From the IMG/VR virus record IMGVR_UViG_3300029286_002900, positions 1-31,539 of that record: 31,539 nt of DNA. One strand, given 5' to 3'. Shown piece by piece: positions 1 through 31,539 of the stretch (positions are counted from its first letter, which is position 1; each line of letters starts with the position of its first letter). The notes under the pieces are model-generated. The model worked only from the letters and a program-made list of their open reading frames with translations. It did not search any database and was not told the origin of the DNA. The translations under genes were made by a program, and so were the position numbers. The stretch is from a virus.

Positions 1-21
1 CATTTTCGGTTTATAATCGCA

Positions 22-65
22 AAATCGAATTGTGCACAAATATAAATCGAATTGTTCAAAAAAAT
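22..65. repeat. Two 22-bp direct repeats, candidate transposase-binding end sites
   Basis: Two adjacent copies (22-43 and 44-65) match at 19 of 22 positions. Both begin AAATCGAATTGT. They lie outside the last gene and its terminator. Transposable phages of the Mu group carry 22-bp transposase-binding repeats at their ends, with two in direct tandem at the Mu right end, so position and period both fit. The exact phage terminus (TG...CA) is not visible and may lie before position 1. Repressor operators are the alternative. Confidence 0.45.
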
Positions 66-78
66 CCGCACACACTAT

Positions 79-105
79 AAAGGCGAGGCCATCAGCCCCG
101 CCTTT
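79..105 (-). terminator. Hairpin terminator after the formyltransferase-like gene
   Basis: On the minus strand a stem begins AAAGGCG and closes with CGCCTTT. The inner GGC/GGCC pairs extend it, with one G-T pair. It starts 5 bases after the stop codon at 110-112. The T-tract after it is short, so termination strength is uncertain, but it is the only hairpin after the last gene of the leftward transcript. Confidence 0.6.
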
Positions 106-109
106 ATTA

Positions 110-589
110 TTATAGCTTCTTGTCATAAGTCGCATACTCATGCACTTGAGGTATGCGCCGGATATAACCACGTTCTATCTCCTCCAGCACCCGGTCAAGT
201 GTCCTGACCATTGCCGGGATAATGTGCTGGTCATAAAACTCACGCGGCCTTTGTGTATGATTAATACCAATAATCTCCTGCTCACAAATGTCACCGCTAT
301 CAATTCCGGAGCTGGCCCAAAACCAGGTAGCCGCGGTAATTGGCTCTTTGCGATTGTAGGCAAACTTAATGGCGCTAGCTCCTTGCCCATATGGCAGCGG
401 CGACGGGTGGAAAATAAGCGTTCCAAGTTCTGGCTCATTTATTTCTGAAAGTGCCAAAATTCGATGTAAAAGCGGTGCAATTGCAAGATGTGGCCTGTCA
501 GTAGTTACATAGTGATTACGTTCTACAATCAGATAGTGGCATGCCACATAAGCGGGTGTGCCAGGCTCTCCTAATATATTTATTCTCAT
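110..589 (-). CDS. Short formyltransferase-like protein (formyl_trans_N family)
   Basis: This 159-residue protein resembles the catalytic core of folate-dependent formyltransferases (Fmt, PurN). Residues 60-70 contain HPSPLPYGQG, matching the family HxSLLP loop. Residues 94-100 contain GIDSGD, matching GLDTGD. His61 and Asp97 correspond to the catalytic His and Asp. The usual catalytic Asn two residues before the His is Ile59 here. The protein is half the length of Fmt and has no tRNA-binding C-terminal domain, so housekeeping Met-tRNA formylation is unlikely. Its ATG overlaps the stop of the ABC-GNAT gene by 4 bases (ATGA), and a GGAGG lies 6 bases upstream. It ends the leftward operon at the phage end. 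I infer a role in making a modified base or small-molecule group together with the GNAT protein. Substrate and donor are unknown. Confidence 0.75.
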   Translation of the reverse strand: MRINILGEPGTPAYVACHYLIVERNHYVTTDRPHLAIAPLLHRILALSEINEPELGTLIFHPSPLPYGQGASAIKFAYNRKEPITAATWFWASSGIDSGDICEQEIIGINHTQRPREFYDQHIIPAMVRTLDRVLEEIERGYIRRIPQVHEYATYDKKL

Positions 590-1713
590 GGTACACCTCC
601 TATATATTTAAAGCCCTGCACCGCCCTAAAATGGCCACCGTATCCCGCACCCCTAACTACCTCTCCCTTTCGTTTAGCTGACCGGCCGAGCGATGAATGG
701 CTCCTGGTCTTATTATCTCCATATAGCTTCGCGCTAACCTGAACCCATTTTTTTGAATGCCTAAGCGCCCCACACAATTGGGGGTGGCTTGTATGAAAGA
801 ATGTTGGAAGCTCTTTCCCACATCTTCCACGTCCGCGAAGGTGATACTCACAAACAGCATTTAGAAATTTAGTACCAACACCGATTCCCTGCCACTCCGG
901 CATTACAACCAGGCGTGTGGCTCTGTAGGCATTGGCCGTGAATAAAGGGCATACTGCTAAATGAGCGACCGGCTCACCATCAATAATACCAACGAAGTAC
1001 TCACCGGCGACTGGGAGTGGCAAATCTAAATAATAATGCGGCTTAAAATGTCGGAATACACTTCCCGAGACTTTATAAATCTGAAGGTCGAGTCTTGAGC
1101 GTTGCCAAAGACATCCGCGAGCGAATCGCGCCTCATCCGTTAGGTAGATCCAGTCTGGCTGAAGCCACTCGATAATATCATGATGGCACGATAATAGCAC
1201 TACCTGTCCCGATCCCTTACGCCATGACTTGGCAAAAGCCTCGGCACCTACTTTTGCGATCTGCCTGTCAATAACACTGGTGAATTCATCAATCACCACA
1301 TACTCCGGACGATCACAAATTAGCCTGGCTAAACCGGCTCGAAACTTTTCTCCATTGCTCAACACATGAAACGGCCTGAGCCATGCCGGAACGTCTCCCA
1401 GGCCTACGGCTGATAAGGCACCTGTCACCTGGTTAAAATCCCCGCTGGGAGCGATACAATCAACAATGGGCTTTGCCCCGTCCCACCCTGCGTAAAGGTC
1501 ATGAATAGGCTCGTTAAAAATCTTTGACCCGAGGCTCGTTTTACCTGAGCCGGATGGGCCAACGATTAGACCAACCTTCCAATCCATTTCCTCTATTGGA
1601 AGCTCGGCAACATGTTCCCAGTTACATCCATTCTCCGCGTTGAACAGGCTTTTCACCCGCATTGCTCTGTAGCTATCATAGTCACTACACCTGTGTTTTA
1701 CCTCAATTCTCAT
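586..1713 (-). CDS. ABC-type ATPase fused to GNAT acyltransferase domain
   Basis: The protein has 375 residues from the ATG at 1713. Residues 1-210 are an ABC-type ATPase: Walker A GPSGSGKTS at 52-60, signature-like LSNGE at 118-122, Walker B YVVIDEFTS at 138-146, H-loop histidines 177-178. Residues about 220-335 form a GNAT fold, with the acyl-CoA loop QGIGVG at 275-280 after RLVVMPEW. No membrane segment is present, so it is not a transporter. This order matches the known ABC ATPase/acetyltransferase fusion group (COG2401-like). The ATG overlaps the stop of the 42-residue gene (GTATGA). An in-frame TTG at 1719 is less likely as start. Mu Mom is also GNAT-related and sits at the same genome end, so I infer nucleic-acid modification. 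The ATPase may power base access or regulate the transferase. Confidence 0.85.
   Translation of the reverse strand: MRIEVKHRCSDYDSYRAMRVKSLFNAENGCNWEHVAELPIEEMDWKVGLIVGPSGSGKTSLGSKIFNEPIHDLYAGWDGAKPIVDCIAPSGDFNQVTGALSAVGLGDVPAWLRPFHVLSNGEKFRAGLARLICDRPEYVVIDEFTSVIDRQIAKVGAEAFAKSWRKGSGQVVLLSCHHDIIEWLQPDWIYLTDEARFARGCLWQRSRLDLQIYKVSGSVFRHFKPHYYLDLPLPVAGEYFVGIIDGEPVAHLAVCPLFTANAYRATRLVVMPEWQGIGVGTKFLNAVCEYHLRGRGRCGKELPTFFHTSHPQLCGALRHSKKWVQVSAKLYGDNKTRSHSSLGRSAKRKGEVVRGAGYGGHFRAVQGFKYIGGVP
596..600 (-). promoter_or_regulatory. Strong Shine-Dalgarno for the formyltransferase-like gene
   Basis: The minus strand reads GGAGGTGTACC directly before the ATG at 589. This is notable because most genes in the window have A/T-rich leaders with no such site, as is usual in Bacteroidota. 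It lies inside the end of the upstream ABC-GNAT gene. Confidence 0.55.
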
Positions 1714-1838
1714 ACACAAACAATTTTACATTTAAAGCCCTCCGAGCGGAGGCGCTCATAAACAGCCTCCTGCTCTGCCTCATCCATGCAGATTACAATA
1801 ACGCCGTACTGCTGACGGTAATTGAACTTTTTTTCCAT
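1710..1838 (-). CDS. Small conserved-looking protein leading the modification operon
   Basis: The 42-residue ORF starts MEKKFNYRQQYG and ends FKCKIVCV. It is compact, with a VIVIC beta-strand, an acidic helix (MDEAEQEAVYERL) and a second strand, which suggests a small alpha/beta fold, not noise. The stop overlaps the ABC-GNAT start by 4 bases, so the two are translationally coupled. The ATG follows an A/T-rich leader (ATTGGTTTTTAAA) with no Shine-Dalgarno. It holds the position that the translational activator Com has before mom in Mu, but its cysteines (residues 18, 38, 41) do not form a Com-like zinc finger. Function unknown. It could be a regulator or a partner of the ATPase. Confidence 0.7.
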   Translation of the reverse strand: MEKKFNYRQQYGVIVICMDEAEQEAVYERLRSEGFKCKIVCV

Positions 1839-28052: not shown

Positions 28053-28352
28053 TTACAGTGATGAAAAATAGAGCCTTGGTATTTTTAGCCATCCGGCAAT
28101 CGTATATTCAACCAACCCTCCTGCCGTAGTATTAACGTCATCAATTGCCGTAATGTAATCGCACGATAGCATTAGGGGGATGCAGATCCGCATAGCAGTA
28201 ACCCAATCGCTCCCCTGGGGAACATGGTCAACGGGAGAAACCGGATAGTGTCCCGATTCGCGAATTATGGATTTCGCCTTCTCGTACTTTTCCATCACCT
28301 CCGATATAGGCAGCCCGGTCACCTTTGCGATAATATATACCCGCTTTTTCAT
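28053..28352 (-). CDS. DUF4406 (nucleoside 2-deoxyribosyltransferase-like) protein
   Basis: The start was placed at MKKRVYIIAKVTGLP (ATG 28352), where homology to DUF4406 begins. An upstream in-frame ATG at 28412 would add 20 basic residues. The 99-residue core has KYEKAKSIIRESGHYPVSP, GSDWVTAMRI and a C-terminal TTAGGLVEYTIAGWLKIPRL. This is a Rossmann-like fold related to nucleoside deoxyribosyltransferases. It may act on nucleotides or nucleotide derivatives, but the catalytic role of the family is unclear. Confidence 0.8.
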   Translation of the reverse strand: MKKRVYIIAKVTGLPISEVMEKYEKAKSIIRESGHYPVSPVDHVPQGSDWVTAMRICIPLMLSCDYITAIDDVNTTAGGLVEYTIAGWLKIPRLYFSSL

Positions 28353-28404
28353 GCTGCTTTTAAATATTCGTTCAAGACGAAAGTGAATGTGCCGTTGTGC
28401 TGCT

Positions 28405-28578
28405 TTATCCATTCGATTCCGGAATTAGCAAGGCCTGAGCGTCGAGAATTTCATAGATAATTACATGTTTTGGCTTGTTAAGCGTATCGACCTTAAACCA
28501 AAGTGCGATATTGTAGATATCGGCGAGCTCCATTTTTTGAAGCTCAAGTACATCGTAGTAAAGTTTTTCTGTTGCCAT
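28405..28578 (-). CDS. Small Rho-N / SAP-like domain protein
   Basis: This 57-residue ORF starts MATEKLYYDVLELQKMELAD. The helix-extended-helix pattern with LQKMELADIYNIALWF and HVIIYEILDAQALLI matches the Rho N-terminal/SAP fold (eLkkm.laeL..iA and eLIyaILd.Qa). It probably binds nucleic acid. The ATG overlaps the preceding gene's stop (TAATG), so it is translated with its neighbour. Confidence 0.7.
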   Translation of the reverse strand: MATEKLYYDVLELQKMELADIYNIALWFKVDTLNKPKHVIIYEILDAQALLIPESNG

Positions 28579-31409: not shown

Positions 31410-31539
31410 AGTTTAAATAGGTTAATGTTTCAAGCTCCTCTTTAGTAATGCCATCTACCGCTTTAAAATCCTTTTGTTTTTGACGAAATAGATAGTAGAC
31501 ATTCACCAGGCGTTCTTTGGGGATCTCGTTGAATGAAAC
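31408..31539 (-). CDS. Early protein, C-terminal fragment cut by window edge
   Basis: The open frame runs from the window edge to a TAA at 31408-31410, giving the last 43 residues, VSFNEIPKERLVNVYYLFRQ up to LEELTYL-type end ...ELETLTYLN. The start is outside the window. Helical and charged. No family recognised from the fragment. It is likely the preceding gene of the early operon. Confidence 0.65.
   Translation of the reverse strand, partial: VSFNEIPKERLVNVYYLFRQKQKDFKAVDGITKEELETLTYLN

Follow-up and report, generated by a model that had tools for sequence, protein, structure and literature searches.

A formyltransferase-like protein linked to phage ABC-GNAT enzymes suggests a possible formyl modification of phage DNA

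It has earlier been predicted that enzymes in which a GNAT domain is coupled with an ABC ATPase place an acyl group of uncharacterised kind on a DNA base; the passage on these proteins in a 2021 jumbo-phage paper (PMC7824862, its reference 136) gives Tenacibaculum phage pT24 and QAX98348.1 as examples. In the amine formyltransferases an asparagine is crucial, and an Ile104Asn substitution in FDH lowers the hydrolase activity to less than 10 %; the hydrolase domain of FDH alone hydrolyses 10-formyl-tetrahydrofolate (10-formyl-THF), with a thiol in the proposed mechanism (PMC4388273). FDH delivers the formyl group to the thiol of phosphopantetheine; for HypX, the transfer to CoA, and with it the formyl-CoA step, is a proposal (PMC6802093). 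The locus described here joins a member of the first group of enzymes to a relative of the second.

The window, that is the whole stretch of DNA analysed, comprises 31,539 nucleotides of the IMG/VR virus record IMGVR_UViG_3300029286_002900. Three overlapping genes are found on its minus strand, transcribed in the order SP, ABC-GNAT and FT, and the coordinates and overlaps given in the earlier note are borne out, with matches in Pfam and PHROG. SP (1710..1838, ATG at 1838) has 42 amino acids, matches phrog_28816 and is a homologue of the C-terminal tail of a ParB-like partner; it is presumed to be an adaptor of ABC-GNAT. ABC-GNAT (586..1713, ATG at 1713, with a TTG at 1719 as a mechanical earlier start) has 375 amino acids, approximately 1-205 forming a soluble ABC ATPase and 205-375 the GNAT half. 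It matches phrog_11143 over its full length (7.5e-141), which like phrog_28816 is a PHROG family of unknown function. FT (110..589) has 159 amino acids, shows the formyltransferase fold, matches phrog_9240 and is preceded by a GGAGG-like ribosome site. The SP stop overlaps the ABC-GNAT start in the sequence ATGA (1710..1713, minus strand), as does the ABC-GNAT stop with the FT start (586..589, minus strand); the two four-base overlaps are a sign of translational coupling across both junctions. A G+C-rich inverted repeat read from the sequence right after the FT stop (76..104, AAAGGCGGGGCTGATGGCCTCGCCTTT) is a likely operon terminator.

The FT stop is situated about 98 bp from the end of a Mu-like phage. 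The end motif (...TTTTGCGATTATA) is found at 12-29 of the window and its core is repeated immediately on the inner side, so that the right end of the phage carries an A+T-rich repeat in two copies (12..57, plus strand, TATAATCGCAAAATCGAATTG...AAATCGAATTG). The same end was found 63-248 bp past the FT stop in 36 related loci, and the DNA beyond it varies between loci. Because of this conserved end and the differing flanks, bases 1-11 of the window are probably host DNA and the module, which adjoins the terminal repeats, forms the final operon in these Bacteroidota Mu-like phages. The location at the phage end proposed from the window is therefore correct for this group, but it is not a general rule, since in Gordonia phages and in many FT-less relatives, with a ParB-like partner, the genes are found near the terminase or elsewhere. 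In the Gordonia phage Axumite the module is placed just before the terminase and in the Pseudomonas phage Komp_PAO1_1 after the tail fibre assembly gene; the position varies among phages and the gene set is constant. Since the record runs to position 31539 without a second end motif, the window probably represents only part of a phage genome. The early-region ORFs that were tested in the window gave no transposase. A separate ORF of 119 amino acids (28053-28412, minus strand) matches phrog_355, nucleoside 2-deoxyribosyltransferase (4.2e-14), and is possibly a second base or nucleotide modification enzyme of the same phage.

The trio is present in the same order in more than 100 loci, far beyond what is expected by chance. 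Scans with patterns derived from the family, each taking the best 80 loci, several of them near-copies, gave proportions that describe near relatives: among genome contigs scanned for ABC-GNAT, FT was present in 75/80 loci and SP in 78/80, alone in 64 and as the tail of a ParB-size protein in 14. Among viral contigs scanned for FT relatives, ABC-GNAT was found beside FT in 78 of the 79 testable loci, a figure valid for this FT subfamily only, the scan sequences having been taken from ABC-GNAT neighbours. The pairing with a formyltransferase-like protein is thus recurrent, and the outcome that would have spoken against the interpretation of the earlier note, homologues mostly with other partners, did not appear; the set of partners is retained among the homologues. 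In the five genome loci without FT, a search for a hidden copy found none. By eye, the adjacent DNA at loci lacking FT was terminase-like in two cases (L099 and L100) and contained apparent host genes in two (L103 and L122).

By the titles of the records, the hosts of the module loci represent at least seven phyla (Bacteroidota, Bacillota, Pseudomonadota, Verrucomicrobiota, Planctomycetota, Acidobacteriota, Thermodesulfobacteriota and Treponema), and cultured phages that carry the module are Komp_PAO1_1 (Pseudomonas) and Axumite (Gordonia). In many loci of the FT clade (L155-L179) two separate genes encode ABC and GNAT. In one contig binned as Oscillospiraceae (L056), ABC-GNAT and FT share a single open frame of 534 amino acids; given the usual four-base overlap of the genes, this fusion is possibly a frameshift error. 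In the family to which the genome of locus L050 (Parabacteroides massiliensis) belongs, an FT of the phage type (>220 bits) was found in 3 of 125 genomes, and the other FT matches in these genomes (74 bits or less, most of them with open frames near 330 amino acids) are as expected for the housekeeping Fmt. Gene 3 of Axumite (L031, 1805-2452) is labelled tRNA-methyltransferase, yet it is homologous to FT and shares its catalytic residues.

In Gordonia phages, Clostridia loci, Pseudoalteromonas phages and others, the gene directly upstream of ABC-GNAT encodes a ParB-like protein whose C-terminus is the SP sequence; in the trio of the window the tail alone is left and the ParB part is absent. 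An SP match was found in 24 phage records, and in every one of them it immediately precedes ABC-GNAT. The ParB part is similar to the N-terminal region of phage DNA methyltransferases (PADLOC MTase_II, 7.6e-27), and Mom-like enzymes with ParB_N proteins upstream are found in the phages Appa and Martha. The SP tail was looked for on these Mom-linked proteins and not found. Because they carry a Cys-rich tail instead, the tail goes with the enzyme, and the SP tail may accordingly be the part that docks ABC-GNAT. SP is, judging from its sequence, a homologue of the tail of the ParB-like partner and probably not Com. The ParB-like proteins with Cys-rich tails that adjoin Mom-like enzymes (L318, 1969-3121; L319, 1693-3061) show an apparent partner swap between DNA-modification enzymes.

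The SP homologue of Porphyromonas phage BK068092 (L030, 3876-4004) is labelled 'acr candidate'; an anti-CRISPR function is disfavoured, SP being the tail of a ParB partner, and the protein is more likely a subunit of the module. In Oenococcus phage Vinitor-27 (L032, 4348-5031) a ParB-like protein of 227 amino acids with an SP tail is labelled adenine-specific methyltransferase, probably a misannotation, as the ParB domain occurs in methyltransferases too.

The support for DNA as the target of the module comes from this context. The role in DNA or nucleotide modification suggested in the earlier note agrees with the likeness of the ParB partner to the N-terminal domain of DNA methyltransferases and with the methylase neighbours: an N4/N6 DNA methylase-like gene is present at most 4 kb from the module in six loci of the FT clade. 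In one of these (L057, 7578-8597) the N6_N4_Mtase DNA methylase, confirmed with Pfam, overlaps the end of FT, and the next gene looks like host dnaX. TmcA is a helicase-GNAT enzyme acting on tRNA, and the module might likewise modify RNA or protein (e.g. tRNA or host RNA polymerase) instead of DNA. This is considered unlikely: GNATs have many targets, and a phage GNAT that acetylates the host RNA polymerase is known (PMC7824862), but the ParB partner is of a kind common to DNA methyltransferases, a similar protein adjoins Mom-like enzymes, DNA methylase genes are among the neighbours, and many members have a position at the phage end or near the terminase.

The formyltransferase domain Formyl_trans_N (PF00551) was found above the Pfam cut-off in FT. 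In the PDB profile search the closest relative was the hydrolase domain of FDH (1.5e-39), with sugar N-formyltransferases, Fmt, HypX, ArnA and PurN well behind, and with an AF2 model of FT (pLDDT 90) the top ranks in Foldseek were FDH, followed by HypX. The His, Ser and Asp of the FDH triad (His61, Ser63 and Asp97 in the window) are invariant in 176/176 FT homologues. The residue two positions before His is Gly, Ile, Val or Ala and in 0/176 cases Asn; in the window Ile59 replaces Asn. At the same site FDH has Ile and HypX Val, whereas E. coli Fmt, ArnA and PurN have Asn. The catalytic Asn that defines the PurN/Fmt/ArnA amine formyltransferases is consequently missing throughout, while the His, the Asp, the non-Asn residue and the closest fold are those of the FDH-hydrolase/HypX type. 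The Ser of FDH is also invariant in FT, and HypX has Gly at this site.

In the phylogenetic tree, whose deep branches are weak and long, the phage FTs lie towards FDH/HypX and apart from Fmt, ArnA and PurN. Two subgroups of FT were found, with Ile and Gly, respectively, at the Asn site; to our knowledge there is no parallel for the Gly form. A role of FT in purine metabolism of the PurN type was rejected on residues (Asn in none of the 176) and relatives. In sequence, fold and residues, FT resembles the enzymes in which a thiol receives the formyl group of 10-formyl-THF, and not PurN or Fmt, and a formyltransferase that is FDH/HypX-like rather than PurN-like therefore points to formyl-thioester chemistry.

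PurN formylates glycinamide ribonucleotide and Fmt formylates methionyl-tRNA. In a Mom-like aminoacyl route the GNAT would acylate a base amine with a glycyl-type group, whose free alpha-amine would then be formylated by FT. Two enzymes in series on a nucleotide would thereby be accounted for, with an FT that does match PF00551, and nucleobase acyl transfer is the expectation for such GNATs in the passage of the jumbo-phage paper concerned (PMC7824862). The Asn needed by amine formyltransferases is, however, the one missing in all 176 homologues, and FT groups with thiol-transfer enzymes, which makes this route improbable.

In ABC-GNAT the domains ABC_tran (PF00005) and Acetyltransf_1 (PF00583) were found above the Pfam cut-off. 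The ATPase motifs are intact (Walker A G52-K58, signature L118-G121, Walker B D142-E143 and H-loop H177) and the GNAT half has the CoA loop Q275-G-x-G-x-G280; all of these are kept in both clades described below. The protein thus has the motifs of the ABC-GNAT DNA acyl-modification family, is homologous to QAX98348.1 and can on these grounds be predicted to make an acyl modification of a DNA base. When the whole AF2 model (pLDDT 78) was used in Foldseek, the best 50 structures were all ABC ATPases, so that the second half is assigned to the GNATs from Pfam and the CoA-loop motif. No gene for a membrane partner is present within the module. Among the defence-system models only weak partial matches were obtained for ABC-GNAT and no match for FT. 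Homology of the GNAT half to Mom was not detectable and was rejected, as hhalign gave a probability of 0.1-0.2 % with a shallow Mom profile, and ABC-GNAT does not match PF25680, which Mu Mom itself does.

The tree of 119 dereplicated ABC-GNATs separates 72 rows of an FT clade from 47 FT-less sequences (SH-aLRT 100, branch 1.68). Among the 72 rows, 66 have FT, two are cut by contig ends and four are without FT. FT was absent from all 80 loci found with FT-less queries, 74 of which were testable downstream. In the GNAT half, residues H251, H307, G359-G360-H361 and Q366 distinguish the FT clade. Most simply read, FT became linked on a single occasion to an enzyme that already existed, and the acyltransferase half of this enzyme changed afterwards. 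If ABC-GNAT instead performed an ordinary acetylation or other acyl transfer on DNA, FT would supply or remove something else, for example by editing or regenerating the CoA thiol. FT-less ABC-GNATs do exist, presumably using another acyl-CoA, but the enzymes with and without FT are split by the long branch and by these GNAT residues, as expected if the donor changed, and this explanation is given a low probability. It is very unlikely that FT is a stand-alone folate enzyme (a 10-formyl-THF hydrolase or purine-pathway helper) raising the nucleotide supply beside an unrelated neighbour, for although phage annotations say phosphoribosylglycinamide formyltransferase and the FDH hydrolase domain by itself hydrolyses 10-formyl-THF (PMC4388273), the one-to-one linkage, the ATGA coupling, the clade-wide co-inheritance and the single joint frame of L056 speak against it, as does the missing catalytic Asn of PurN.

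The reading preferred here is that FT loads formyl on CoA and that the GNAT half N-formylates a DNA base, which would protect the phage DNA. It is favoured because FT and ABC-GNAT co-occur, the ABC-GNATs with FT form one clade, FT is of the FDH/HypX type and the context of the module points to DNA; as a whole it is held with slightly less than even confidence. The module would be a DNA base-modification system, probably expressed late. FT would take formyl from 10-formyl-tetrahydrofolate and load it on a thiol, most likely that of free or GNAT-bound CoA, giving formyl-CoA, from which the GNAT half would place an N-formyl group on an exocyclic base amine (adenine N6, cytosine N4 or guanine N2). 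Formyl-CoA is proposed as the donor because HypX is proposed to make it and because GNATs use acyl-CoA; we know of no GNAT that uses formyl-CoA. Considering the intact motifs and the absence of a membrane partner, a dimer of the ABC ATPase may bind, clamp or distort DNA in an ATP-driven cycle. SP, or ParB-SP elsewhere, would dock on ABC-GNAT and the ParB part, where present, would direct the enzyme to DNA. The expected outcome is phage DNA shielded from restriction. A point against this reading is the possible chemical lability of base amines that carry an N-formyl group.

A more tentative proposal is that the folate one-carbon pool supplies formyl-CoA with which a GNAT N-formylates the bases of duplex phage DNA, giving a new mark, a new GNAT donor and a route independent of S-adenosylmethionine. 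If true, phages mark their DNA via formyl-CoA, a base modification that is undescribed and likely to have effects on restriction and DNA sequencing, folate metabolism is connected to DNA modification without S-adenosylmethionine, and GNATs have one more acyl donor. In any case the linked FT offers a specific, testable guess at the acyl group for one clade of ABC-GNATs, and the predicted modification can be tested in the cultured phages Axumite and Komp_PAO1_1.

The literature search gave nothing that joins phage formyltransferases to ABC-GNAT and nothing on formylated phage DNA bases, within a coverage that excludes the original prediction paper from 2013. Reference 136 of the jumbo-phage paper is presumably Iyer et al. 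2013. The novelty attributed to the system from the window is thus reduced in one part, the idea of ABC-GNAT as a DNA acyl-modifier being already published according to the passage mentioned (PMC7824862). As far as we found, the FT partner, the relation of SP to the ParB tail and the formyl hypothesis are new.

The parallel with com/mom of Mu stands in position and proposed role and fails in the homology of the GNAT half. Both are the last operon at a phage end, with a small gene overlapping upstream of a GNAT enzyme and with a protective DNA modification, proposed in the present case. The module differs in that SP is homologous to the tail of a ParB partner, in the additional ABC ATPase and FT, and in the lack of detectable homology to Mom. 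The published ABC-GNATs with predicted acyl modification belong to the same superfamily, and QAX98348.1 (our homologue H30) and the pT24 genes were recovered as ABC-GNAT homologues. ParB-like partners are found in many FT-less members; no FT was found beside QAX98348.1 and the pT24 genes, whereas the window belongs to a separate, FT-linked clade. The same three-gene module is found in Mu-like phages of Porphyromonas gingivalis (e.g. BK068092) and in Komp_PAO1_1, in whose records the genes are labelled hypothetical protein, acr candidate and phosphoribosylglycinamide formyltransferase, with no joint role proposed there. The hydrolase domain of ALDH1L1/FDH is the best match of FT in sequence and fold and has the same Ile-aromatic-His-Pro-Ser motif and Asp, but FT is a short separate protein without an aldehyde dehydrogenase or carrier domain, and the FT of the window is without part of the N-terminal half. 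The N-terminal domain of HypX matches FT in fold with 26-27 % identity, has a similarly short N-terminal half and also has no catalytic Asn; HypX adds a domain proposed to decarbonylate formyl-CoA to CO, whereas FT works beside a GNAT enzyme.
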